The notes under the pieces were generated by a model. The model worked only from the letters and a program-made list of their open reading frames with translations, was not told the origin of the DNA and did not search any database. DNA of 25,846 bases from Actinomycetes bacterium (GTDB taxonomy: Bacteria; Actinomycetota; Acidimicrobiia; Acidimicrobiales; RAAP-2), in NCBI GenBank assembly GCA_021791615.1, contig JAJYWG010000404.1, positions 1 through 25,846 on the forward strand, in the 5' to 3' direction. The position numbers were made by a program, and so were the translations under genes. Each line of letters starts with the position of its first letter. The first letter of the stretch is position 1. Positions 2,454 to 24,858 of the stretch are shown here, in pieces.

Positions 2454-3736
2454 CCATGCAAGCTCTCTCCAGTGGTGCCACCACTCTCAAACCCCGGCGA
2501 GTCGTCATCTTGGTCTCCGCACTCGGGGTTCTCGCTGTGCTCCTGGCGGCCTGCGGAAGCAACGCCTCGAGCACGCCGGCGCCGGTCGTCAGCGGCCATG
2601 GTCCCGGTGGCACCGCGTTACCCAATTTCCCAGCGTCACAAAACTTCTATCAGCTCCCGTCACACGTGTCGCCGGAGCCTCCGGGCAGGCTCGTGAGAGT
2701 CCAGACCATCTCAGACGGTGGCGGTGAGGCGCTCTTGCGAGTCATGTACCACTCGCTCAATCCGGCGGGACACGATGCTCTCGTCACCGGGCTCATTTCC
2801 TACCCCACGGGTCCAGCGCCGAACGGGGGATGGCCTGTCATCGCATGGGATCACGGCACCAACGGCTTGAATTCGAGTTGTGCGCCGAGTCGAACCGGAG
2901 GGCCGGGATCGATCCCCACTTTTGGCATTCGCGGCGTAGGGGTTGCCACTGACTTCGAAGGGGAGGGACCCGAGGGGGAGATCATGCCCTACTTGAACCG
3001 GACGACCGAGGCGGAGTCGACGATCGACATCGTGCTGGCCGCACGCCAGATCCCCGACGCGCACGCAAGCACCAGGTGGGTGGTCGTCGGCGATTCCGAG
3101 GGGGGGCACGCAGCGCTTGCGACCGGCGAGTTGGCGCCCAAGGACGGGGCCGATCTCCATCTGCTCGGCACGGTTGCCATCGGCCCCGGAGTGCTGTTGT
3201 CGCAGTTCTTCCCGGGTGACACGCAATTGGTCTACGACATTGTCGAGGTCTTGGTCGTCTATGGAGCACACGCAGCAAACGCGAGCTTCAACCCTGCTGA
3301 GGTGCTTACGCCCGCCGCGCAAGGCGTTGCATCAGTGATCGACAACCAGTGTGTCGATCAGGTCGCCGCTTACCTGGCCACAGTCTACGCAAAGAGTGGC
3401 GGGCACTTGTTTACCACGCCGCCGCTGCAGACCCCCCAAGGCAAGGCGTGGATCGCCGAGAACAACATTCCGCAGGTTCACACGGATAGCCCGATCTTGG
3501 TGATCGGAGGAGGCCAGGACACGGTCGCCGTTCCGGCACGCATCGGAGCACTGATGCCACGCTTGTGTGCGCTCGGCGACCGGGCTTCAATCGATTGGTA
3601 CCCAACGGCAAATCACGATACCGAGATCACACAAGGTGCCGGAGCGATCCATACCTGGATCGACGCGAGATTGGGCGGCAGGCAAGCTCCCACGAGTTGC
3701 CCCTACACAGCCGCGAGCACTCCCACGACGACGTGA
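2450..3736 (+). CDS. Secreted lipoprotein lipase / alpha/beta hydrolase (LIP-like family)
   Basis: 428 residues from the ATG at 2450, which overlaps the upstream stop (ATGA) and is preceded by an AGAAAGGAA ribosome site about 9 nt away. A longer frame opens at 2324 but lies inside the upstream gene. The signal peptide ends in lipobox LLAAC (Cys35). The fold shows WDHGTNG (133-139, oxyanion-hole region), nucleophile elbow GDSEGG with Ser216, GGGQD with Asp357 and ANHD with His389, which together form a complete Ser-Asp-His triad. The pattern resembles secretory lipases (PF03583-like), which cleave triglyceride or other ester substrates. The specific substrate is not deducible. Two lipid-anchored hydrolases and a regulator in overlapping reading frames suggest one extracellular ester-degrading function under local control. 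Confidence 0.85.
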   Translation: MTMQALSSGATTLKPRRVVILVSALGVLAVLLAACGSNASSTPAPVVSGHGPGGTALPNFPASQNFYQLPSHVSPEPPGRLVRVQTISDGGGEALLRVMYHSLNPAGHDALVTGLISYPTGPAPNGGWPVIAWDHGTNGLNSSCAPSRTGGPGSIPTFGIRGVGVATDFEGEGPEGEIMPYLNRTTEAESTIDIVLAARQIPDAHASTRWVVVGDSEGGHAALATGELAPKDGADLHLLGTVAIGPGVLLSQFFPGDTQLVYDIVEVLVVYGAHAANASFNPAEVLTPAAQGVASVIDNQCVDQVAAYLATVYAKSGGHLFTTPPLQTPQGKAWIAENNIPQVHTDSPILVIGGGQDTVAVPARIGALMPRLCALGDRASIDWYPTANHDTEITQGAGAIHTWIDARLGGRQAPTSCPYTAASTPTTT

Positions 3737-4938
3737 CGGGGTCAACTGTACCTGCTCGGTCGCAGGAGAGGACGAACCGCCGCCAGCAAGTGCAGAATGC
3801 TGCTGCCGCGCTGTTTGCCCGTCGTGGCTTCGACGGGATCAGTATGGCCGAGATCGCTGCTGAGGTAGGAATATCCGCGCCCGCGCTCTACCGCCACTTC
3901 CCAAGCAAAGAATCGATCATTGTCGCGATCACGCTGAACGAGATCGATCACCTGCATGACATCGTCTGTCGTCCTCGTACCGAAAACGCTTCCCTTCGGG
4001 GCCGCTTGCGTCAGCTCGTATCGGAGGTTCTCGACCATCCCGACGAGTTCCGGGTCTACCTCAGAGAACGGCATCGGCTGCCGGATGGGGCAAGCAAGAC
4101 GGTTCTCGACCGGGAGCGAGCAGTGCAGAGGGTCCTTACGTCCTTGATTGCCGATTGCCGCGCAGATCTCGAGGCTCACGACATTGAAAGACGCCTCATC
4201 GCGATGTCGGGAGTGCTCAAAGCTTTCTCCGAACGCCGACCCTCACTGGCCCGTCCCAGTGCGGAAAGTTTCGTGGCCGGCGCACTCGACTGCATGCTGT
4301 TGTCGGAACCGATCACGAGCTCGACACCACCACCACGGCCATCTGGCCACTGGTCTCCGAGGACATCGCAATTCGAGCGTGTCCTACGTGCCGCGTTGGC
4401 ATTGTTCCGCGAACGTGGGTTCGATGGAGTCGGGTTTGGGGAGATCGGCGAGGCGGCGGGGATCGGATCAGCAAACGTGGCCCGTTACTTCGAGAACAGA
4501 GGACAGATCCTGGTCGATCTGTATGACCGAGTCGGATCTCGTGTCGAAGTCGGCGTGGACGATGCGATGTCCGCGGCGAAAGACGCGAGCGATGCCTTGG
4601 GTCGACTGATCGATTCTTACTGCGCGATCGCGTTCGAAGCGGTCGACCTGGTGGTTGTGGTGAGCAACAGTCGAGGTGCGATTCCGCCCGATGAGCGCCC
4701 TCGCCTCCGCCGACGAGATCGGCGGATCATGAGCATCTGGCGCGCGGTCGTTTCCGAGGTGCGTGCAGACCTGCGTCCAGTGGAGGTCCGCACGCTGTGC
4801 ATTGGCATCATGCCGCTCGTGAACATGTTCCCTCAGCAGATGCATGGACGCCTGCCTCACCCGAGCACGGTGGCATCGCTCGTTCGGGCGTACCTGCTCG
4901 GAGCGCCTTCCCCACTTGGAACCCCACCGCACTTGTAG
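3733..4938 (+). CDS. Tandem TetR regulator (two TetR-type DNA-binding domains in one chain)
   Basis: 401 residues from a GTG at 3733 that overlaps the lipase TGA (GTGA), indicating translational coupling; the upstream frame to 3565 is lipase coding sequence. Residues 13-60 form a classic TetR_N helix-turn-helix domain (ARRGFDGISMAEIAAEVGIS, then ALYRHFPSKE). A C-terminal-like ligand domain follows to about 195. A second TetR_N domain spans about 212-260 (RERGFDGVGFGEIGEAAGIG, then RYFENRGQIL), followed by a second ligand-domain-like region to the end. Ordinary TetR proteins are about 200 residues and dimerise, so this chain resembles a covalent dimer with two diverged halves. In the second half the usual Y-x-H-F at the end of the recognition helix is ARYFEN. 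It probably represses its own operon in response to a hydrophobic ligand or hydrolysis product (inference). Confidence 0.88.
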   Translation: MTGSTVPARSQERTNRRQQVQNAAAALFARRGFDGISMAEIAAEVGISAPALYRHFPSKESIIVAITLNEIDHLHDIVCRPRTENASLRGRLRQLVSEVLDHPDEFRVYLRERHRLPDGASKTVLDRERAVQRVLTSLIADCRADLEAHDIERRLIAMSGVLKAFSERRPSLARPSAESFVAGALDCMLLSEPITSSTPPPRPSGHWSPRTSQFERVLRAALALFRERGFDGVGFGEIGEAAGIGSANVARYFENRGQILVDLYDRVGSRVEVGVDDAMSAAKDASDALGRLIDSYCAIAFEAVDLVVVVSNSRGAIPPDERPRLRRRDRRIMSIWRAVVSEVRADLRPVEVRTLCIGIMPLVNMFPQQMHGRLPHPSTVASLVRAYLLGAPSPLGTPPHL

Positions 4939-5018: not shown

Positions 5019-6458
5019 CTACGGGCTGGCCCGATCCTCGTCAGTCCAGCGTTCGGGAAGCCACACCACGAGCCGCGCCCCCTTTTCGCTCGTCGCGACC
5101 CGTGCCGTCCCCCTGTGGATCATGGCGATCTCCCCGACGATTGCCAATCCGAGCCCCGTGCCCCCGGTGGCGCGATTTCTCGCAGTATCGAGGCGTGAGA
5201 ACCGCTCGAATACCTGGTCACGCATGTCATCGGGGATCCCTGGTCCGTCGTCGGCAACGACAAGCTCCACGCCTTCGTCGAGACTGTGGAGCTCGAAGCG
5301 TACGAGCGACGACGCGTGCCGTTCCGCGTTATCGGTAAGGTTTCGAACCATCCTGCGCAATTGCTCTCGATCACCGAGCACGCGACCGGCGCTCACACCG
5401 TGGCAATCCACTCGAATCGTCCCGATTGCACGCAGACGCCTGACTTCTGTGAACAGGATCTCGTCCAAATCGACAAGATCCCGTCCGGGCACAAGTTGAC
5501 CCTCGTCACTCCGAGCAAGTAGCAGCAGGTCGTCGACCAGGCTTGCGATGCGCTCTCCCTCGTGGATGACGGTGGTTGCAACCGCTGTCCAATCAACTGC
5601 CGGAGAACGCGCTTGCGCGACCTCGACTTGTGCAAGCAGTGCTGCCAAAGGACTCCGCAGCTCGTGTGAGGCATCGCTCACGAACCGGCGTTGGCGATCG
5701 TTCGACTCCTCCAAGCGCGCCAACATTTCGTTCATCGTCCGAGCAAGACGGCCAATTTCGTCTTCACTCGATGGTTCAGGTACGCGTCGATGGAGCTTGT
5801 TGGCCGTAATGTCCGACAGCTCTTCTCGTAGTGCCTCCACGGGACGCAGTGCCAATCCCGCCAGCACCCACGCAAAGACGCCAGAGAGCACGACAAGCAC
5901 CGGCAAGAGAACGAGAAGTGCCAGGATGAGAAGGTGCGTTGAGTTCTCCACCTGCTCGACCGAGGTCGTGGCATAGACAGTTTCAGTGCCACCGCGCGTC
6001 TTTACCGTACTTGCCACCGTCAAGTCAGTATCGTCGTCGGCTCGAAATACTGGTACCGTTCGCAAGATCTCGCGTTGACCTGGTCGGGGTCGTATCCCAG
6101 ACAGCGCCTCGTGCCCAATCAGATCTGCTGACGACGACAGCACCCGGCCTTTCGCGTTCACGACTTGCACGGCAACACCAGCTCTGGCCGGAAGGGTCGC
6201 AGGAAGAGAACCGCTGCTCGCCAAGGCGCCGACCTCACTGGCCTCTTCGGTGTCGAGGGTTACGAGATTGCCGAATGCCGAATGATGCACCCATAGGACA
6301 AGTCCGACACCACCAGCACCCAGTGCGACAGCAACGACGAGAAAAGCAACCGCAGCGATACGCACGCGAACCGATCGAATCGCAGGGAGCAACGGCCGCC
6401 GAGGGTCATCTGCTATTACATCGGCTGTCGCACCGTCGCCGGATTCGTCAGCCACCAT
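5019..6458 (-). CDS. Sensor histidine kinase (HAMP, HisKA, HATPase_c)
   Basis: 479 residues from the ATG at 6458, which overlaps the end of the response-regulator gene by 11 bp. A longer frame to 6524 would lie inside that gene and is unlikely. Order: TM1 about 34-57, an extracytoplasmic sensor of about 120 residues, TM2 about 176-201, a HAMP linker, a dimerisation/phosphoacceptor helix with SHELRSP (His266), then the ATPase with N-box NLTDNA (near 378), DDGPG (404-408) and GGTGLGL (433-439). All catalytic motifs are present. It should autophosphorylate on His266 and phosphorylate the regulator encoded just upstream. The sensor domain has no motif that reveals its signal. The gene converges with the hydrolase/TetR operon. 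Confidence 0.93.
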   Translation of the reverse strand: MVADESGDGATADVIADDPRRPLLPAIRSVRVRIAAVAFLVVAVALGAGGVGLVLWVHHSAFGNLVTLDTEEASEVGALASSGSLPATLPARAGVAVQVVNAKGRVLSSSADLIGHEALSGIRPRPGQREILRTVPVFRADDDTDLTVASTVKTRGGTETVYATTSVEQVENSTHLLILALLVLLPVLVVLSGVFAWVLAGLALRPVEALREELSDITANKLHRRVPEPSSEDEIGRLARTMNEMLARLEESNDRQRRFVSDASHELRSPLAALLAQVEVAQARSPAVDWTAVATTVIHEGERIASLVDDLLLLARSDEGQLVPGRDLVDLDEILFTEVRRLRAIGTIRVDCHGVSAGRVLGDREQLRRMVRNLTDNAERHASSLVRFELHSLDEGVELVVADDGPGIPDDMRDQVFERFSRLDTARNRATGGTGLGLAIVGEIAMIHRGTARVATSEKGARLVVWLPERWTDEDRASP

Positions 6459-7125
6459 CGGCAGATAGGCGGTATCCGATACCCCGGACCGTTTCGATAG
6501 CCAGCCGATTGAATGGGTAATCAATCTTCTTGCGTAAATATCCTATGTACACTTCCACAATATTTGGGTCTCCTTCGAAATCTTCTCCCCACACATGGGA
6601 CAAGATCTCGCGCTTCACGACGGCTTCTCCCGAAAAGCGCATGAGATACTCGAGGAGGGAGAACTCGCGGGGAGTGAGGTCAATCATCGACTCGCCACGA
6701 CGGCACCGGTGCTCAGCAGGATCCAGGGTCAGATCACCGGCCACCAACACCGCAGGTCGCTCTCTCCTTCCTCTCCGGAGGAGTGCACGTATCCGAGCAA
6801 CCAGCACGACGAAAGAAAACGGCTTTGAGAGGAAGTCGTCCGCACCAGTGTCGAGCGCTTCCGCTTCGTCGAACTCGCCGTCTTTCGCGGTGAGCATCAA
6901 TATTGGCACCCAATTGTTCTCTTCGCGAAGCGTTGCACAGAGTTTGAACCCGTTGACGCCGGGGAGAAGGATGTCGAGGACGATCACGTCATAGGCAAGC
7001 TCCCTCGCGCGCCACAGGCCTTCCGTACCGGTCGTCGCAATATCGACGGAGAACCCTTCGTCACGAAGACCACTCGCCACGGCAGAGGCGAGGTGCTCTT
7101 CGTCTTCTACGAGAAGGACGTGCAC
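6448..7125 (-). CDS. OmpR/PhoB-family response regulator
   Basis: 225 residues from a GTG start. The N-terminal receiver domain has the acidic pair E7-D8 (LLVEDEE), phosphoacceptor Asp51 (VIVLDILLPG), Thr79 and Lys101 (FLSKPFS). The C-terminal winged helix (TPREFSLLEYLM, then GEAVVKREIL, VEVYIGYLRKKID, VRGIGYRL) binds DNA as a dimer, usually at direct repeats. It is first in a two-gene operon with the sensor kinase, whose start overlaps its stop. Targets cannot be inferred from the sequence. Confidence 0.95.
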   Translation of the reverse strand: MHVLLVEDEEHLASAVASGLRDEGFSVDIATTGTEGLWRARELAYDVIVLDILLPGVNGFKLCATLREENNWVPILMLTAKDGEFDEAEALDTGADDFLSKPFSFVVLVARIRALLRRGRRERPAVLVAGDLTLDPAEHRCRRGESMIDLTPREFSLLEYLMRFSGEAVVKREILSHVWGEDFEGDPNIVEVYIGYLRKKIDYPFNRLAIETVRGIGYRLSADGG

Positions 7126-7595: not shown

Positions 7596-9377
7596 TCATC
7601 CGCCAGGGCCACCCCCCGGGGCTCCGGGGCAGTTGAGCGGCACGCCGGCAGGTAGCTGGGCTGTACCCGGAGCATTGCCGTACTGCTTGCCACCGTTGCA
7701 CTTCACCCAGGCGCCGGGCTTCCCGTCAATCGCACTCAGCGCGGTATTGCTCCATCGCACCACTCCAAATGACTCGTCAGGACCAAAGGAGCTGGAATTG
7801 AACGACCAGTTCCCGTACATCCCTCCCGTCAGTGACCTCGGAAGACTCCGCAAGCCCTGTTGAAAGGTCTTTGGAGTGAGGTATGGGCCTGCCGCCTGCA
7901 GCGCGTCGAAGAACATCAGCAGTGGCTCGTACACGTAACTGAAACTTGGAATGATCTTCTCGCCGGGAGGCGCTCCCATCTCGAAGGCGCGATAGGCTTC
8001 GGTGTCAGCAGCGGGTACCGCCTGGCGGCCGAACCCCACCGCATCGGCGATCTGGTCCGGTGCCTGGAGGCCCGTGAGCGCTGTGAGAAAATCTGATTCG
8101 ATCCATTCGGGGTGATAGTCAGCGATATCGGCTGCCTTGGTGACAAATATGGGAGTAAAAAAATCACACGTGGTACAGAGAACAGTCGTCACCCCGGCGC
8201 TCTTCATCTCCCCCACTGCGGTGGACGCCTGGGAATCAAGTGTCGCACCATTGAGGTCCATATGGAAATCGGTTCGCATGGTGATTCCATATTTTGATTT
8301 CAGTCCCTGGATCAGTTCCGCGTCGCATTGCTCCGACTGAGCAGTCGCCGTTCCCAAGAAACCGAACACTCGCTTCTTCCCATTCAATGAAGCGCTCCCT
8401 GCGAAGGAGGTGGGCGTGGTATTGAGTACCTTGCCCACCAATTGCTCGGTCTGTGCAATCGATGTCGAGCAAAGAGTGCCCGTCGTGTACATGTATGGTG
8501 ATTCACCTTGAAACTCTGTATTCGGCCCCCCATAGATGCTCAAGCCGATCACACCTTGCTGGGCAAGAGCTTCTTCGTAAAGGGGAGTGGCATCGATAAC
8601 GGAACTGTCCGCAAAGGCCCCGAGTCCCTTTGCCGTGATGGCATCTTCCATTGCGCCGGCTTGGTCTTTGCCATTCAATTCTGTGACAAAGTTGCCTTTC
8701 CCGATAAATGGCTTGAGAACGACCTTTCTTCCGTAGAGCTCGAACGTCTTGTTGAAAGTGTTCACGAACGCCTGCATGGTTGCAATGGCTTCTGTGTTCG
8801 TCCCGATGACGGCAGGGGGAACGATCGAGTAGATGGTGGCCAACTGCGTAGACGATGCTTCGCGATACGTAAGGGTGATGGTCGTCTTCGTCACCCCTGG
8901 AGCAGTCGCTCCACCATTGTTGCCGGTCCATTTCGGCACACAGATCGGCGCGTAACGCGACCAAGGCACTTGGCGAACCCCTGGTCCGCAGTGGACCCCG
9001 CTCACGGTAAGACCAGGCGTGCCTGGAGCAGGGGCTGGCGTGACGCCCGAGGGGGTCCCCGCTGTCTTCGGAGCGGCTGACGTGACCGTCTTCGATATCG
9101 ACGGCAGCAGGTTCGCCAGCACAATGGCTCCCGCGACGAGTAGGGCGACAGCCCAGTACCTCCGTATGAGCGCCACGGTGACACCTGCTGGATCCCGCTG
9201 AACGCCAGGGCGCCGACGACCGCCTACGGGCGTACGTTGCACCACCCGCGCCGGCTCCAACACGTCCTGCGAAGCGACCTGCGGCGGTTCAGAAGGAGGA
9301 GGCGTCGGAGGAACCGCGGCGGGCGGCGGCGCTTGGCCGTAGCCGGGAGGAGGAGGCGGCGGAGCCGCGTCGCTCAT
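7596..9377 (-). CDS. Membrane-anchored ABC substrate-binding protein (LivJ/Peripla_BP_6 type), second paralog
   Basis: 593 residues. It starts at an ATG (9377) that overlaps the stop of the fused transporter gene as ATGA. Residues 1-35 are Pro-rich and about 36-70 are basic. A single membrane segment follows (72-92, YWAVALLVAGAIVLANL), with no lipobox, so the binding domain is probably tethered by an N-terminal transmembrane helix with a cytosolic tail. The extracellular part starts with CGPGVRQVPWSRYAP (Cys120, Cys136, a possible disulfide) and GNNGGAT. It continues with the type I periplasmic-binding fold of branched-chain amino acid/amide receptors. It is clearly homologous to the protein at 13607-15445 (shared VIGTNTE, TFNK-FELYGRKVVL and others). 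The ligand is unknown; HAAT systems take up hydrophobic amino acids, amides, urea or aromatic acids. The gene is markedly AT-richer than its neighbours after the first ~350 bases. Confidence 0.87.
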   Translation of the reverse strand: MSDAAPPPPPPGYGQAPPPAAVPPTPPPSEPPQVASQDVLEPARVVQRTPVGGRRRPGVQRDPAGVTVALIRRYWAVALLVAGAIVLANLLPSISKTVTSAAPKTAGTPSGVTPAPAPGTPGLTVSGVHCGPGVRQVPWSRYAPICVPKWTGNNGGATAPGVTKTTITLTYREASSTQLATIYSIVPPAVIGTNTEAIATMQAFVNTFNKTFELYGRKVVLKPFIGKGNFVTELNGKDQAGAMEDAITAKGLGAFADSSVIDATPLYEEALAQQGVIGLSIYGGPNTEFQGESPYMYTTGTLCSTSIAQTEQLVGKVLNTTPTSFAGSASLNGKKRVFGFLGTATAQSEQCDAELIQGLKSKYGITMRTDFHMDLNGATLDSQASTAVGEMKSAGVTTVLCTTCDFFTPIFVTKAADIADYHPEWIESDFLTALTGLQAPDQIADAVGFGRQAVPAADTEAYRAFEMGAPPGEKIIPSFSYVYEPLLMFFDALQAAGPYLTPKTFQQGLRSLPRSLTGGMYGNWSFNSSSFGPDESFGVVRWSNTALSAIDGKPGAWVKCNGGKQYGNAPGTAQLPAGVPLNCPGAPGGGPGG

Positions 9378-12300
9378 GACGGGATCCCCGACGGGGTCCC
9401 CACCGGCGGAGCCGGCGGGGCCAGCGGAGGTGAGCCGGGCGGTGGCCCAAAGGCGCCGACTGGTGCGGGCTCAGTGCCAGGCCGAGCGGGAGAGAGGGGG
9501 CCCGAGCGGTGGACGGCAGAAGCGTCAGCTCCGAGGTATGCCGAGACCACCACGGGGTTGGAGAGGACCTCGGTGGTCTCACCCTCGGCGATGACCTCGC
9601 CCAAATGGAGGCACACCATCCGATCGGCCAGGGAAGAGACCAGCGGCACGTCGTGCTCGATGATCACGAACGTGGCACCGGTCTGCTCGCGTAGTCCGAG
9701 GAGGAGCTCTGCCAGAGCTTCGCTCTCACGCTGGGCAATCCCCGACGTGGGCTCGTCGAGCAAGAGGACTCTCGGCTCGTGGGCGACGGCGCAGGCAAGC
9801 TCAACAATGCGACGGGTGCCGGTCGACAGCTCGGACACGTAACGCTCCTGAAAGCGTTCGAGCCCGAACTCCGCGATCAGGCTCTGTGCCTTCTCGTCGA
9901 CAATTTCCTCGGACCTCTCGACCTCGGCAAGGTACAGGGCAGCAGCAAGTGGGTCCTTCACGGGTGCGAACCTCTCCAATGCGGTGGCGATTGCCTCACG
10001 TACCGACATCGATGGCCACAGGCGAGCATCTTGGAACACCCGGCCGATGCCCTTCAACGCCCTCTGCGCCGGAGAGGTGTTGGTGATGTCGACGCCGTCC
10101 AGCAGGATCCGTCCGGAGTCGGGGGTGATGAAGCCCGAGCAGACGTCGAACAGCGTGGTCTTGCCCGCACCATTGGAGCCGATGATGCCGAGGATCTCCC
10201 CCGGAGCGACGGAGAGCGTCACGTCGGTGAGCGCCGCGACACCTCCGAACTGCTTGGATATTCCCAGCACCGACAGTGCCCCCCCGCCGCTGGCGAGCCT
10301 CCAACCTGAGCTCGCCTCGGCAGGCGTGGACTCCGCGCCATCGGTGATCGGGGCGACATCGGTGATCCGCGGGCTCGACGCGGTGCCGGTGCTGCCGGCC
10401 GGGAGCGACGAGGCGCCGCCCGGCTCGCCAGCACCTCCCGCCAAAGCCGCCAACACGGCATCAGCCCGCGACGACGCACTCCCGAAGCCGGGCTGCGAGG
10501 CAGGTCCGACCGATGAGCCAGCAGCGGAGCCGGCGCCGGTAGCGGTTCCTGTCCCCGCTCCTTTCCTCTTCTGTGCTCGACCAGCCGCATGAATGAAGAC
10601 CGAGCGCAGCAGCTCAGGCTGCTCGGAGAGGTCCGGGGTAGGACCGCTGAAGCGCACACGGCCCCTTTCCATGAAGATTGCCCGGTTGGAGATGGCGGTG
10701 GCCACGTTGACCGACTGCTCGACCACGACCACGGTCACTCCGCTCGCCGCCAGCGCCCTGATGACCTCCAACAGGTCGGCAACGACGGTGGGAGCCAGGC
10801 CGAGAGAGAGCTCGTCGATCAAGAGGAGGCGGGGACGGCAGAGCAGGGCCTGGCCCAGCGCCAGCATCTGCTGCTCGCCTCCGGAGAGCAACCCGGCACG
10901 CTGCTTCTGGCGCGAGCGCAGGACCGGGAACAGCGAGAGCACGCGCTCGGTTGCCGCGTTGGCGAAGATCAGATCGCGGTGATGCCGACGAGCGGTCCAT
11001 GCTGCAAGCCGGAGGTTCTCTTCGACGGTGAGAGAAGGAAATATCCCGCGGCCTCCGAGCACGGTCACCAAGCCGGATCGCACACGGTCCACGGGATCGA
11101 GTGTGGTCACGTCACGTCCGAGAAAGCTGACCCGGCCTTTGGCCGGGCGCAGCAGACCTGAAAGGGTGCGAAGGATCGTGGTCTTGCCCGCGCCGTTGGT
11201 CCCGAGCAGCGCGACGACCTCGCGCTGGGCCACACCCATTCCGACGTCGAAGAGAACCTGGGAGTTCCCGTAGCCGGCGTCCACGTCCGCGATGCTGACC
11301 AGCGCCGGGCGACCCTCCGGGGGTTCGGCATTGACGCCACCACTGCCGGCGCTGATTGCTGCTCCGCCGTGAAGTTCGAGGTCCTCGAGTGCCCCGAGCC
11401 GGAGCGCCGCAGTATGAGCAACGGCACCCACCCCGCCGGCAGGTGCCATGGCGCCCGCGGGTCCGCCCGCGGGTCCGAGCGCGGGTCCGAGCGCGGGTCC
11501 GCCCGCCGGTCCGACCGATGGCGTCGCGCTCCCGATCCCGGCCAGGGGTTCGCCGGTCGGAGACAGGCCCTTCGCCCGTGCCACTTGGGCCACGATCCAG
11601 TCGCGGGCGGCGAACAGGAGCCCACCGAAACCTTCCGGCAGGATCAGCAGGACGACCAGCACGCCGGCCCCGCTGCCCAGGTACTGCCAGGCGCCCGAGA
11701 GCTGCGTCGACACGATCGTGATGTACGCAGCGCCGATCACACTGCCCGTCGCCGATCCCAAGCCTCCGATCACGACCATGATGAACACGACGATCGAGAA
11801 TGTGGCCGAGAACCCGTTGGAGGAGATGCCGCCTTCGTGGACCACGTAGATGGCCCCGGCGAGCCCGGCAACGAACCCGGAGATCCCGAACGCCATCAGC
11901 TTCGACTTGAGCGGGCTGATGCCGTACGCCGACGACGCCCTCGAATTGTCCCGGACCGAGAGGATCGTCCTCCCCGAGCGCGATCGACGCAGCGCGGTTG
12001 CCGCCAGGATGGACAGCACGAGGACGAGCGCTCCGAACTCGTACAGCGAGGTGTAGGGGGTCGCGAGTGAGAAGCGTTTCAAGAGCACAGGCGGGTTGAC
12101 CCGTGCCGGGTCCAACCACGGGAAGTACTGGGACGAAAGCACGTATGTGGACATCACCACGGCAAACGCCAGGGTGACCACGGCCAGCGCCGTCCCCTCG
12201 AGACGCAGAGCGGGGATGCCCACCAGGCCCGCGGTGACCGCGCCGGCGACTCCCCCGACGAGCATGGCGAGGAGGAACGGCAGGTGGAGATGGACCATGA

Positions 12301-13594
12301 ACGCTCCCGCGATGCAGGCCCCCAGACCGGCGAAGGCGAACTGACCCAAGCTGATCTGTCCGGCCCACCCGACGAGGATCACCATCGAGACGGCGATGAT
12401 CGCGTAGACCATCGATGTCACCGCAGCCGAGGTGGACGATGCGCCCGCCAGCCAGGGCACCGCGATGGCCACTCCCGCCACCACTGCCAGGAGGACGAAT
12501 TTGCCGGCACGGATCTCTTTCAAATTGGCGAGCACCCGCGGGATGGGTGCGACCTCTCTCACGGCGACGTAGTCCCCGAGACCGGTGTCCGTCAGCCGGA
12601 CTTGCTTCGACCGCTGGAGCAGCAGGCCGATGAGGATGAGGACGAACAGGGCCACCTGCGCGTAGACAAAGGAGCCGTAGCTGGCATCGGTGACCTGCTC
12701 GACGATCCCGATCACGAGGGACCAGAGCACGGCCATGGGGAGCGACTCCATACCGGCCAGGACAAAGGCAGCCAGCGGCGCCATCATCGCTGCCGCGATG
12801 TCGAACTGTCCCAGCCCGACTCCGTTGATGGGCTGGGTGAGGATCGCTCCGACCCCCGACAGGCCGGCCGCCACCATCCAGGCGATCCTCGTCAGGTTCC
12901 GTACAGGGATCCCGAGAAGCTGGGCACGCTCGCTGGAGTCGGCAGCCCCCCGGATGGCCACCCCGGTGTCGGTGCGGACGAAGAACCAGTACAGCAACCC
13001 CAGCGCGATCGGCACCACCGCCATCGCCACCACGTCGTCTCCGGTGAACACGATGGGGCGGATGGTGAAGTGGGCGGTGAACGGCGTCTTGAATGTCGAG
13101 AAGGGCGACAGCGTGCCCCGGAACAGGTGTGGCATCTCGAGCGCGATGAACCCGAGGATCTCTGCCACGCCGATGGTGGCCACGGTCACGATGAGCCGCG
13201 GCGCCCGACCGAGCCTCCACTGGATCATGAGGTCGACGAGGTATCCGATCACCACCGCGGCGATGATCCCGAGAGGCACCGCGATCCAGTACGACCAATG
13301 GAGGCCGGTGACCAAGAGGATGGCGAGAGCCGACGCCACGCTCCCCAAGGCTGCCTGCGCAAAGTTGATGACCCGGATCGAGCGGTAGATGATGATCAAG
13401 CCCATCGCCACCAAGGAGTTCAGCCCGCCGATCACGAGTCCTTGGACCACTTGGCCGGGGGGCGCCCCATCCGGCAGGAAGTGCGCGGCCAGCGCCCAGG
13501 CGGCAAGGGTGCCGACCACGAACGCGGCAGCGATGGTCACCTTGCCCTTGGTGGTATGGGCGTCCAATGTGAGCAGGCTCCGTTCGCCGATCAC
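9374..13594 (-). CDS. Four-domain fused HAAT ABC transporter core: LivH-LivM-LivF-LivG in one chain
   Basis: 1406 residues in one uninterrupted frame from a GTG at 13594, preceded by AAAGGG. Residues 1-330 are a LivH-type permease (GLNSLVAMGLIIIYRS near 56-71). Residues 360-665 are a LivM-type permease (GWAGQISLGQFAFAGLGA near 409-426). A Gly/Ala/Pro linker follows (690-760). NBD1 (765-1003) is LivF-like: Walker A GTNGAGKTT 798-806, signature LSGGE 903-907, Walker B LLLIDE 923-928, and Gln960 at the H-loop position, as usual in LivF. A second low-complexity linker covers 1004-1100. NBD2 (1105-1357) is LivG-like: Walker A GSNGAGKTT from 1139, signature LSTGT 1256-1260, LLLDE ending 1281, H-loop His1314. 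A Pro-rich tail ends the chain. All ATPase motifs are intact, so it should form a complete importer core in the membrane. The gene lies 12 bp after one binding protein and overlaps the next. LivH-LivM or permease-ATPase fusions are known; a complete four-part fusion is, to my knowledge, uncommon. Confidence 0.93.
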   Translation of the reverse strand: MIGERSLLTLDAHTTKGKVTIAAAFVVGTLAAWALAAHFLPDGAPPGQVVQGLVIGGLNSLVAMGLIIIYRSIRVINFAQAALGSVASALAILLVTGLHWSYWIAVPLGIIAAVVIGYLVDLMIQWRLGRAPRLIVTVATIGVAEILGFIALEMPHLFRGTLSPFSTFKTPFTAHFTIRPIVFTGDDVVAMAVVPIALGLLYWFFVRTDTGVAIRGAADSSERAQLLGIPVRNLTRIAWMVAAGLSGVGAILTQPINGVGLGQFDIAAAMMAPLAAFVLAGMESLPMAVLWSLVIGIVEQVTDASYGSFVYAQVALFVLILIGLLLQRSKQVRLTDTGLGDYVAVREVAPIPRVLANLKEIRAGKFVLLAVVAGVAIAVPWLAGASSTSAAVTSMVYAIIAVSMVILVGWAGQISLGQFAFAGLGACIAGAFMVHLHLPFLLAMLVGGVAGAVTAGLVGIPALRLEGTALAVVTLAFAVVMSTYVLSSQYFPWLDPARVNPPVLLKRFSLATPYTSLYEFGALVLVLSILAATALRRSRSGRTILSVRDNSRASSAYGISPLKSKLMAFGISGFVAGLAGAIYVVHEGGISSNGFSATFSIVVFIMVVIGGLGSATGSVIGAAYITIVSTQLSGAWQYLGSGAGVLVVLLILPEGFGGLLFAARDWIVAQVARAKGLSPTGEPLAGIGSATPSVGPAGGPALGPALGPAGGPAGAMAPAGGVGAVAHTAALRLGALEDLELHGGAAISAGSGGVNAEPPEGRPALVSIADVDAGYGNSQVLFDVGMGVAQREVVALLGTNGAGKTTILRTLSGLLRPAKGRVSFLGRDVTTLDPVDRVRSGLVTVLGGRGIFPSLTVEENLRLAAWTARRHHRDLIFANAATERVLSLFPVLRSRQKQRAGLLSGGEQQMLALGQALLCRPRLLLIDELSLGLAPTVVADLLEVIRALAASGVTVVVVEQSVNVATAISNRAIFMERGRVRFSGPTPDLSEQPELLRSVFIHAAGRAQKRKGAGTGTATGAGSAAGSSVGPASQPGFGSASSRADAVLAALAGGAGEPGGASSLPAGSTGTASSPRITDVAPITDGAESTPAEASSGWRLASGGGALSVLGISKQFGGVAALTDVTLSVAPGEILGIIGSNGAGKTTLFDVCSGFITPDSGRILLDGVDITNTSPAQRALKGIGRVFQDARLWPSMSVREAIATALERFAPVKDPLAAALYLAEVERSEEIVDEKAQSLIAEFGLERFQERYVSELSTGTRRIVELACAVAHEPRVLLLDEPTSGIAQRESEALAELLLGLREQTGATFVIIEHDVPLVSSLADRMVCLHLGEVIAEGETTEVLSNPVVVSAYLGADASAVHRSGPLSPARPGTEPAPVGAFGPPPGSPPLAPPAPPVGTPSGIPS
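11453..11512 (-). repeat. 12-bp minisatellite in the permease-ATPase linker
   Basis: Five adjacent 12-bp units (11453-11464, 11465-11476, 11477-11488, 11489-11500, 11501-11512), variants of GCCCGCGGGTCC and GAGCGCGGGTCC. They encode GPAG/GPAL tetrapeptides on the minus strand in the linker between the LivM and LivF domains of the fused transporter. In-frame expansion would change only linker length. Confidence 0.85.
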
Positions 13595-13606: not shown

Positions 13607-15445
13607 TTAGCTCTTCTGCCCACGTGAGCTCGTGCCACTCGCGCTCGTGCCACTCGATCCGCTCGAGCCCGACCTGCCGGAGCTGCATTTGAGCTGCTGG
13701 TGAGCCGGCACGTCGGCGCCGTCCTGGTCATAGCTGAACACGCGACCACCGTCACACGAGACGAAAGCGCCCTTCTTCCCGTCGAGAGGGTCCGTCGCAC
13801 CGGCCTTGAACGCCACCACGCTGTAGGTGGAAGAGGGATCGAAAGGCCCGTCCTTGCCGCTCCAGCCGCCCAGCATCCCCCCGGGCGCAGATGTGGGGAT
13901 GCGCGCCATCGCCGCCTCGAAGTTCTTCGGCGTGAGGTCCGGGCCGGCCAGTTGGAGGGCGTCGAAGAACTGCAGGAGCGTCTCGTAGGTGTAGGAGTAC
14001 GAAGGGATGGGCTTCACCCCGGGGTCCGGGTTCCCGAGGTCGTAGGCCTTGATCGCCTCTTGCTGGCCGAGCGGCCGGGTCTGCATGCCGACACCGATGA
14101 TGTGGTCCACTTGCGGGGCGGGGAACAAGTCCGTGAGCGATGTGGTGTTCGTCTCGCTCCCGGCGAAGTACGACTGGAACCACCACTCCGGGTGGTAGTT
14201 CAACCTGTTGGCTTCTGTCATCATGAACCTGGGGGTGATCGGGTCGGCGGAGGACATGATGATGGTGGTCACCCCCGCAGCCTTCATGGCAGCAACCGCC
14301 GTATCGGCCTGGGAGACGAGCTCCGAGAGGTTGAACTCGACGCCGACCGACTTCACGACCTTCTGGCCGTACTTCGCCATGTCCTTGATGTCGAGGTTGG
14401 CACACTGCGCTGATTCGGGGTTCTGCGGGTAGATGATCCCGTAGACCCTCGTCTTGTGCCGCAGCGCTGCTGTACCGGCGTCCGAAGCCGGGAGCCCGCC
14501 GAGCTGCTTGCCCAAGATCGCGGCGGTGGCCTCCGCCGCTTTGGTGCAGTTCGGTCCTGGCGTGTACTCCCAGGGTGCGTACTCCTTGTACCATGTCAGC
14601 GCGTTCTCGTAGAGGCTCGACGTCACCACGTGCTGTGCCGCCAAGTCGGTCGAGTACACCGCGCTGGAGTCCACCAGGGACATGTCGGCGAAGGCCTTGA
14701 TCGTCTGGGACACGGTCACGGCATCCTCTTCGGCCTGCGCCTGGTCCTGGCCGATGTCCTCTTCGATGAAGTCCCCCTTGCCCTGGAAGGGGACGAGGAC
14801 GACTTTGCGCCCGTAGAGCTCGAAGCTCTTGTTGAACGTGTTGATGTAGGCCTGCATGGTGGCCTCTTCTTCTGTGTTGGTGCCGATCACTGTCGGCGGC
14901 ACCAGGGAGTAGAGGAGGGAGAGCTGTGTGGTCGTGGCAGCGCGGTACGAGATGGTGATGGTCGATCCGGTGACTCCCCTCGACGTCGCGCCACCGTTGT
15001 TCCCGCTCCATGCCGGCTGGCAGGGTGGCGCGTAGGCCGACCACGTGACCTGGCGCACGCCGGGGCCGCAGGTCACCCCGCTCACCGCGACACCATGCCC
15101 GTATGTCGGGTTCGGCGGGGTGACCCCGTGGGGGACCGTGATCGAAGTCGGTATTGCTGTTGTGGCGACCGACGTCGGCGACGACGCTTGCTCGGGCACG
15201 AAGACGAGGACGGCGAGCAGCGCCAGCACGGCCAGGCCCACCACGACCCGATGCCGTCGGATGGCCACCGCGGCACGGCTCGTTGCTGCGCCGCTCGGCC
15301 CACCGTCGCCGACGTTCCCTGCCAATTCAGCCCCCCTCGGGCCTCTCCCGTCCCCTCCCCGGACCAGCCGGAGCGAGACGCCGTCACCCTCCTTGCCCCG
15401 CCGACACCGGCCACCTCCCGACAGGTGAGTCCGGCGCGACTCCAC
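13607..15445 (-). CDS. Membrane-anchored ABC substrate-binding protein (LivJ/Peripla_BP_6 type), first paralog
   Basis: 612 residues from a GTG at 15445. A TTG at 15325 with a strong upstream GAGGGGGG ribosome site is an alternative start that would shorten it by 40 residues and still keep the anchor. One transmembrane helix (about 67-84, VVVGLAVLALLAVLVFV) follows Arg-rich sequence, and no lipobox is present. The exported domain begins CGPGVRQVTWSAYAPPC (Cys126, Cys142) and GNNGGAT, then the type I periplasmic-binding fold of amino acid/amide receptors. The Ser/Gly-rich C-terminus is low complexity. It is the first gene of the transporter operon and ends (TAA) 12 bp before the fused LivHMFG gene. 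It shares long conserved stretches with the paralog at 7596-9377, so the pair probably arose by duplication and may widen substrate range. The ligand is unknown. Confidence 0.87.
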   Translation of the reverse strand: MESRRTHLSGGGRCRRGKEGDGVSLRLVRGGDGRGPRGAELAGNVGDGGPSGAATSRAAVAIRRHRVVVGLAVLALLAVLVFVPEQASSPTSVATTAIPTSITVPHGVTPPNPTYGHGVAVSGVTCGPGVRQVTWSAYAPPCQPAWSGNNGGATSRGVTGSTITISYRAATTTQLSLLYSLVPPTVIGTNTEEEATMQAYINTFNKSFELYGRKVVLVPFQGKGDFIEEDIGQDQAQAEEDAVTVSQTIKAFADMSLVDSSAVYSTDLAAQHVVTSSLYENALTWYKEYAPWEYTPGPNCTKAAEATAAILGKQLGGLPASDAGTAALRHKTRVYGIIYPQNPESAQCANLDIKDMAKYGQKVVKSVGVEFNLSELVSQADTAVAAMKAAGVTTIIMSSADPITPRFMMTEANRLNYHPEWWFQSYFAGSETNTTSLTDLFPAPQVDHIIGVGMQTRPLGQQEAIKAYDLGNPDPGVKPIPSYSYTYETLLQFFDALQLAGPDLTPKNFEAAMARIPTSAPGGMLGGWSGKDGPFDPSSTYSVVAFKAGATDPLDGKKGAFVSCDGGRVFSYDQDGADVPAHQQLKCSSGRSGSSGSSGTSASGTSSRGQKS

Positions 15446-24135: not shown

Positions 24136-24858
24136 TCAAGCCGACGCGACGGGCGCAGGGCCCACCGGACCTGCAGGTCGCGACGCCGAGCGGCGCCGGC
24201 GCCACCAGAACGGCGCCTCCAGCGCCGCCAGCAGGACGACGGCCACACCGGCGGCCGAGACCAGGTACCACGGCCAGGGACCCAGGACCGAGAGCAGCGT
24301 GGTGGCCGCGGGGGGATGGCGCAGGAACATGTAGTCACCGCCGGTCGCGGCGTCGGCGGCCCCGACCACCCCGGTGTACGCCAACGTGATCGCGAAGACC
24401 TTCGCCGCCGACCACTGACGGGGCTCGATCCGCTCCCCGACCACCAAGAAGAGCGCGGCGGCCACGATCCCGGCGTGCGCCAGGACGTACTCCAGGAATT
24501 CCATGCTCGGGAACCCGACCTGGACGTCGGGGGTGAGGAGCGCTTGGAGCGTGCCCGCCAGCCCCCAGAAGTACGTGAGCTCGACCGCGGTCGGACGGCG
24601 CCACCACAGCGCCGCCGCCGCGACCAGCGTGGCCACGTCGCACAGTGGCAGCGGGAGCGACGTGGCCCACGACCACGCGCCTTGGGTCGTCGACGTCACG
24701 ATCCACGCGACGCTCACCGCCAGGAGGAGCACGGCAAGAAAGCGCTCGATCCAGCGGACCCCCGGCGCCGGGAGCGCCCGGGCGGCCCAGACGAGCAACG
24801 CGCTCCCGACGGCCGTGGCGCCGAGGGTGGCGAGGTAGGCGGCCGACATGACCGGCAC
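24136..24858 (-). CDS. Multi-pass membrane protein, YwaF / TIGR02206-like
   Basis: 240 residues from a GTG at 24858; an in-frame ATG at 24849 is an equally good start. About six or seven hydrophobic helices run through the protein. It carries the family's conserved features: LPLPLCDVATLVAA (helix with a Leu-Cys-Asp), YFWGLAGTLQALLTPD and a following helix with a histidine (EYVLAHAGIV), and near the end GGDYMFLRHPP. These match the TIGR02206/YwaF integral membrane family (related to TMEM164), whose function in bacteria is not established. The C-terminus is a short basic tail. It is convergent with valS and lies 61 bp downstream of a LivF-type gene on the same strand. Confidence 0.8.
   Translation of the reverse strand: MPVMSAAYLATLGATAVGSALLVWAARALPAPGVRWIERFLAVLLLAVSVAWIVTSTTQGAWSWATSLPLPLCDVATLVAAAALWWRRPTAVELTYFWGLAGTLQALLTPDVQVGFPSMEFLEYVLAHAGIVAAALFLVVGERIEPRQWSAAKVFAITLAYTGVVGAADAATGGDYMFLRHPPAATTLLSVLGPWPWYLVSAAGVAVVLLAALEAPFWWRRRRSASRPAGPVGPAPVASA

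Follow-up and report, generated by a model that had tools for sequence, protein, structure and literature searches.

The contig JAJYWG010000404.1 of an Actinomycetes bacterium, examined here over a window of 25,846 nucleotides, encodes a single protein in which two permease and two ATPase domains are joined in the order LivH-LivM-LivF-LivG (H, M, F and G below). It is very probable that this chain of about 1400 residues constitutes a complete importer core of the HAAT type, served by two substrate-binding proteins (SBP1 and SBP2), in which F and G pair as an intramolecular heterodimer and which arose once by gene joining. The one-chain form is not unique to the window, as the same domain order is found in all of the listed homologs.

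Domain composition and relatives of the fused chain

The fused gene occupies a single minus-strand frame, running from a GTG codon at position 13594 to the stop at 9374 with no internal stops (Table 1). Two BPD_transp_2 stretches (189.8 bits for the chain, cut-off 26.8) and two ABC_tran stretches score above the Pfam cut-offs. The domains were assigned by profile scans of single segments and by BLAST against LivH, LivM, LivF and LivG of Escherichia coli K-12; for the four in-frame pieces the best-scoring models were, in order, UrtB/LivH, LivM/UrtC, UrtE/LivF and UrtD/LivG. The nearest relative of solved structure for the first ATPase domain is 1ji0, and the second carries the LivG-type BCA_ABC_TP_C tail (PF12399, 27.6 bits, cut-off 25.5). 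The segment scans, the identities to the E. coli proteins and this tail establish the order H-M-F-G, so that the proposal of a sequence-only reading, that all four types follow one another in one 1406-residue frame, is borne out segment by segment. A short predicted cytoplasmic region in each permease half may have a coupling role; that of H forms short helices in the AlphaFold2 model, and the M loop spanning residues 531-566 has a mean net charge of +7.

Table 1. Features of the fused importer gene, its flanking genes and related loci (window positions unless a locus is named)
Feature	Position	Strand	Details
Fused importer gene	9374..13594	-	1406 aa; LivH-LivM-LivF-LivG order
Permease domain 1, LivH-like	12617..13453	-	Residues 48-326; 26.7% identity to E. 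coli LivH; UrtB/LivH models
Predicted cytoplasmic coupling region, LivH half	12905..12970	-	Residues 209-230, DTGVAIRGAADSSERAQLLGIP; aligns with E. coli LivH RACAEDLKMASLLGI
Permease domain 2, LivM-like	11630..12490	-	Residues 369-655; 27.7% identity to E. coli LivM; LivM/UrtC models
Predicted cytoplasmic coupling region, LivM half	11927..11980	-	Residues 539-556, RSGRTILSVRDNSRASSA; aligns with E. coli LivM GRAWEALREDEIACRSLGL
LivM-LivF linker, Ala/Gly-rich	11300..11629	-	Residues 656-765; 110 residues between domain-model ends
ATPase domain 1, LivF-like	10622..11299	-	Residues 766-991; 40.9% identity to E. coli LivF, 24.7% to LivG
Walker A, ATPase 1	11180..11203	-	Residues 798-805, GTNGAGKT
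Switch position, ATPase 1	10715..10717	-	Gln960 replacing His; Gln in 120/120 listed homologs and E. coli LivF
LivF-LivG linker, Ala/Gly/Ser-rich	10277..10621	-	Residues 992-1106; 115 residues between domain-model ends
ATPase domain 2, LivG-like with BCA_ABC_TP_C tail	9524..10276	-	Residues 1107-1357; 35.2% identity to E. coli LivG, 31.7% to LivF
Signature, ATPase 2	9815..9829	-	LSTGT, residues 1256-1260; third position Thr in 108/120 listed homologs
Switch His1314, ATPase 2	9653..9655	-	His in 120/120 listed homologs
SBP1, divergent type I substrate-binding protein	13607..15445	-	612 aa; 12 bases between its end and the fusion gene
SBP2, divergent type I substrate-binding protein	7596..9377	-	593 aa; start overlaps the fusion stop by 4 bases (ATGA)
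MFS_1 domain before LivF (often then LivG), Actinomycetota HAAT-type loci	L006:6516-8735, L019:4538-7498, L020, L021, L022, L023, L026, L027, L029, L032		

A whole-chain search, confined to proteins of 0.55-1.75 times the query length and hence not a census comparing fused with split forms, scored 7991 candidates and gave 2138 matches. Listing and examination covered the best 120 matches, one of them (P0002) being the window's own protein. All four domains were located in each of the 120, in the order H-M-F-G and with two Walker A motifs; these proteins are 1208-1580 residues long, derive from several sequence sources and share as little as 45% identity. Where the source names a taxon, it is Acidimicrobiales, Acidimicrobiia, Actinobacteria or Actinomycetota. 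Seven fused genes with this domain order were found in four other genomes, at loci titled Acidimicrobiaceae, Actinomycetes or Actinobacteria, and four of the seven recur among the 120 listed homologs; the nearest named locus (L001) belongs to Acidimicrobiaceae bacterium isolate palsa_457, at 63% in the best segment. Two Chloroflexota loci in the genome scan (L005 and L007) match through the ATPase domains only. The earlier view of a one-chain HAAT-type core is therefore upheld, but the chain is no isolated oddity, since its listed relatives share the form. No description of the one-chain form was found in the titles and abstracts of the literature searched, in which it seems to have gone undescribed.

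The fusion gene lies between the genes for SBP1 and SBP2, which share 43% identity in alignment. Scanned directly, neither protein has a significant Pfam or NCBIfam match; a relative in L001 (L001:6292-7953) lies narrowly above the Peripla_BP_6 cut-off (31.9 vs 31.7). The AlphaFold2 model of SBP2 (mean predicted local distance difference test, pLDDT, 88.1; predicted template modelling score, pTM, 0.82) has the HAAT binding-protein fold with one N-terminal helix (residues 63-90); like other type I binding proteins, it also resembles the ectodomains of glutamate and GABA-B receptors. A hydrophobic N-terminal stretch was noted by eye in SBP1 and likewise in SBP2. The SBP family profile was built from an alignment that includes SBP1 and SBP2, whose scores against it are thus no test. 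Four cysteines (130, 146, 560 and 583 in SBP2) are invariant across 86 aligned sequences of this family, and disulfides are likely. A loose lipobox pattern occurs in 15 of 122 family sequences, neither SBP1 nor SBP2 being among them.

Two BPD_transp_2 permease domains, one LivF-type ATPase, one LivG-type ATPase with its tail and a cognate type I binding protein alongside (SBP2 by fold, SBP1 by its identity to SBP2) make a HAAT-type core, of the TCDB 3.A.1.4 kind, the best supported assignment. From what is known of the family the chain would function in import, and its ligand may be a small organic acid, an amino acid or an amide.

Unequal ATP sites and proposed working

In all 120 listed homologs, both ATPase domains retain the lysine of Walker A and the Asp-Glu pair of Walker B, the catalytic glutamates of the window's chain being residues 928 (F) and 1281 (G). 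The third signature position of F is Gly in 117 of these, and the Q-loop glutamine of G (Gln1188) is present in all; at the aligned position of F (847) the residues are Gly (100 homologs), Ser (12), Ala (seven) and Asp (one), leaving F without a Q-loop glutamine. The previous statement that Walker A, signature and Walker B are intact in both ATPases holds in that all three are present in both domains, but G has an LSTG signature and F lacks both the switch histidine and the Q-loop glutamine. In an ABC site, the Walker motifs of one domain combine with the signature of its partner; a full site (Walker motifs and histidine of G with the F signature LSGGE) and a weak one are therefore expected, and by their residues the two ATP sites of the chain are unequal. 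In E. coli, LivF has Gln and LivG has His at the switch position, and because this difference is shared the asymmetry probably predates the fusion, which would do no more than fix the F:G pair.

In the proposed working, the H-M permease pair and the F-G ATPase pair that follows it would be tied by flexible linkers rich in Ala, Gly, Pro and Ser. SBP1 and SBP2, each probably held at the membrane by one N-terminal helix, would hand the ligand to H-M at its outer face, and F and G would form an intramolecular heterodimer that closes on ATP. The full site would place Walker A, Walker B and His1314 of G opposite the LSGGE of F, and the weak site would place F, devoid of switch histidine and Q-loop glutamine, opposite the LSTG of G. 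Uptake would be powered by ATP hydrolysis in the full site. Covalent joining may confer a benefit by setting a 1:1:1:1 stoichiometry and disfavouring F:F or G:G pairs.

About 70 residues of the M-F linker are of low confidence in the AlphaFold2 model, in agreement with the linker of about 70 residues originally noted. Gaps between domain matches range in the listed homologs from 28 to 152 residues (M-F) and from 28 to 181 residues (F-G), and one short linker motif recurs in 47 of the 120. Residues 36-1005 (H-M-F, 970 residues) are modelled in a confident single arrangement (pTM 0.88). The reach of the first ATPase domain, which had been raised as a real structural question, thus looks a modest one, given gaps of as few as 28 residues and the joint model of H, M and F.

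The E. coli branched-chain amino acid transporter LivKHMGF, a HAAT system, has homologs of all four core domains (27-41% identity). Its four core genes are, however, separate and ordered H-M-G-F (K-H-M-G-F with the LivK gene), whereas here one chain has the ATPases reversed; LivK is a free periplasmic protein, while the binding proteins here appear from the SBP2 model to be anchored. The HAAT urea transporter UrtABCDE, to whose UrtE and UrtD the F-like and G-like segments respectively score best, likewise has separate subunits. Tandem ATPases in one chain occur in sugar importers of the RbsA/AraG kind. Full-length ABC exporters carry all four domains in one chain but alternate transmembrane (TMD) and nucleotide-binding (NBD) domains as TMD-NBD-TMD-NBD and have another fold, in contrast to the TMD-TMD-NBD-NBD chain with importer permeases seen here.

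A single gene encoding every core domain of a heteromeric importer would define the F:G pair and fix the stoichiometry, and the unequal HAAT ATP sites would become testable by single-site mutation, free of subunit mixing. Since a sequence search with the permease pair against a library of solved structures gave no match up to E = 1, a one-chain form, if stable, could also be well suited to structural work.

Partly fused systems and the origin of the chain

Eleven partly joined H/M/F/G systems were found in three genomes (G001, G004 and G005), of which G001 and G004 hold one-chain forms as well. LivH-LivM occurs with a LivF-LivG chain at eight loci of G004 and with separate LivF and LivG at L029, while LivH-LivM-LivG occurs with LivF at L006 and L032. 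These two- or three-chain systems have the same four domains and are nearest to the one-chain form among the sampled tips. In ten of the eleven the LivF-bearing protein begins with a major facilitator superfamily domain (MFS_1), which is absent from the one-chain form. The remaining system (L024) has no MFS domain, and the stop of its H-M gene overlaps the start of its F-G gene as TGATG. The MFS-LivF-LivG chain of L019, used as a query, gave 7599 matches among 7994 scored; all 120 listed carry both PF07690 and PF00005 (table read by eye), and some are annotated in their source as 'ATPase component/MFS family permease'. A literature search found no paper on MFS-bearing LivF-type ATPases.

A tree was inferred from joined H, M, F and G alignments of 60 tips, comprising 48 fused systems drawn from the best matches, the 11 split systems and E. 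coli; three fused tips are repeats (L025 of L004, L002 of P0047 and L028 of P0071), leaving 45 distinct. All 48 fused tips form one clade with an ultrafast bootstrap (UFBoot) of 100, and FastTree support for this split is 1.0 for HMFG, HM, FG and G, 0.997 for H and 0.985 for M. Six HM + FG systems adjoin the fused clade (support 88 for the grouping), followed by L019 and L021 (100) and then L029 (98). The partly fused sister systems, including those whose LivF bears an MFS domain, suggest a route by which such chains were assembled. The simplest history is a stepwise joining, most likely of a LivH-LivM gene to the following LivF-LivG gene, in which the one-chain form arose a single time and lacked the MFS domain; this domain would have been lost along the way. 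Only tentatively, at somewhat less than an even chance, may this be extended to a one-chain importer class that arose once in Actinomycetota from MFS-tied LivF loci, the MFS domain being dropped as LivH-LivM joined instead; the chain would then be the end point of a build-up whose intermediates still live, and the MFS-ATPase hybrids a second, unstudied kind of transporter partner.

Alternative explanations and neighbouring genes

Several observations weigh against a one-chain HAAT-type importer of single origin. Single segments miss the NCBIfam equivalog cut-offs of LivH/M/F/G (scores and cut-offs 44.8/379, 94.4/366, 188.6/441 and 179.3/362) and of UrtB, UrtC, UrtE and UrtD (in segment order 57.6/250.3, 84.6/296.2, 209.5/285.8 and 185.1/304.1), and the name of leucine or urea transporter is therefore unwarranted. 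At L004, whose fused gene is also that of L025, no SBP gene adjoins the fusion, and for the binding proteins beside the L028 and L030 fusions Pfam gives no match at 1e-5. The tree of F alone fails to recover the fused clade, and the split systems were sampled from three genomes only. The whole chain does exceed the NCBIfam cut-offs of UrtE (327.2 vs 285.8) and LptB, but only because its two ATPase domains are summed, no single segment passing either; such scores are a trap for automatic annotation and a source of wrong names.

The chain could be a precursor that is cut, or re-initiated internally, so that H, M, F and G would work as individual proteins, the E. coli arrangement. Both ATPase linkers are long and of low complexity, and the low-confidence part of the M-F linker is probably accessible to proteases. 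None of the 13 in-frame ATG, GTG or TTG codons in or at the edges of the linkers is preceded within 18 bases by a Shine-Dalgarno-like word, however, so that internal translation starts are not indicated by the sequence, and the joined order persists in all of the listed homologs despite the wide range of their linker gaps. A precursor is accordingly improbable, though it deserves consideration.

A non-importer complex, in which the HAAT fold serves signalling or export, is less probable again. The missed Liv and Urt cut-offs, the likeness of SBP2 to receptor ectodomains and the two-component pair downstream (5019-7125) would suit such a role, yet all of the listed homologs conserve His1314 and the Walker residues at both sites, and characterised HAAT permease/ATPase pairs with adjacent type I binding proteins are importers. 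The loss of stops or frameshifts between genes through assembly or sequencing error, conceivable in what is probably a metagenome contig, has next to no likelihood, since the same architecture recurs in all 120 listed homologs from several sources and in the fused genes of the four other genomes.

Among the neighbouring genes, the two-component pair consists of histidine kinase and response regulator genes, which like SBP2 are on the minus strand and lie 470 bases downstream of it. A 457-residue protein with two tandem TetR-type DNA-binding domains, whose halves are 40% identical over 52 residues, is encoded at 3565-4938 on the plus strand. At 24136-24858 on the minus strand, a 240-residue protein of the TMEM164 family (PF14808, 159.5 bits) is encoded adjoining aminoacyl-tRNA synthetase genes.

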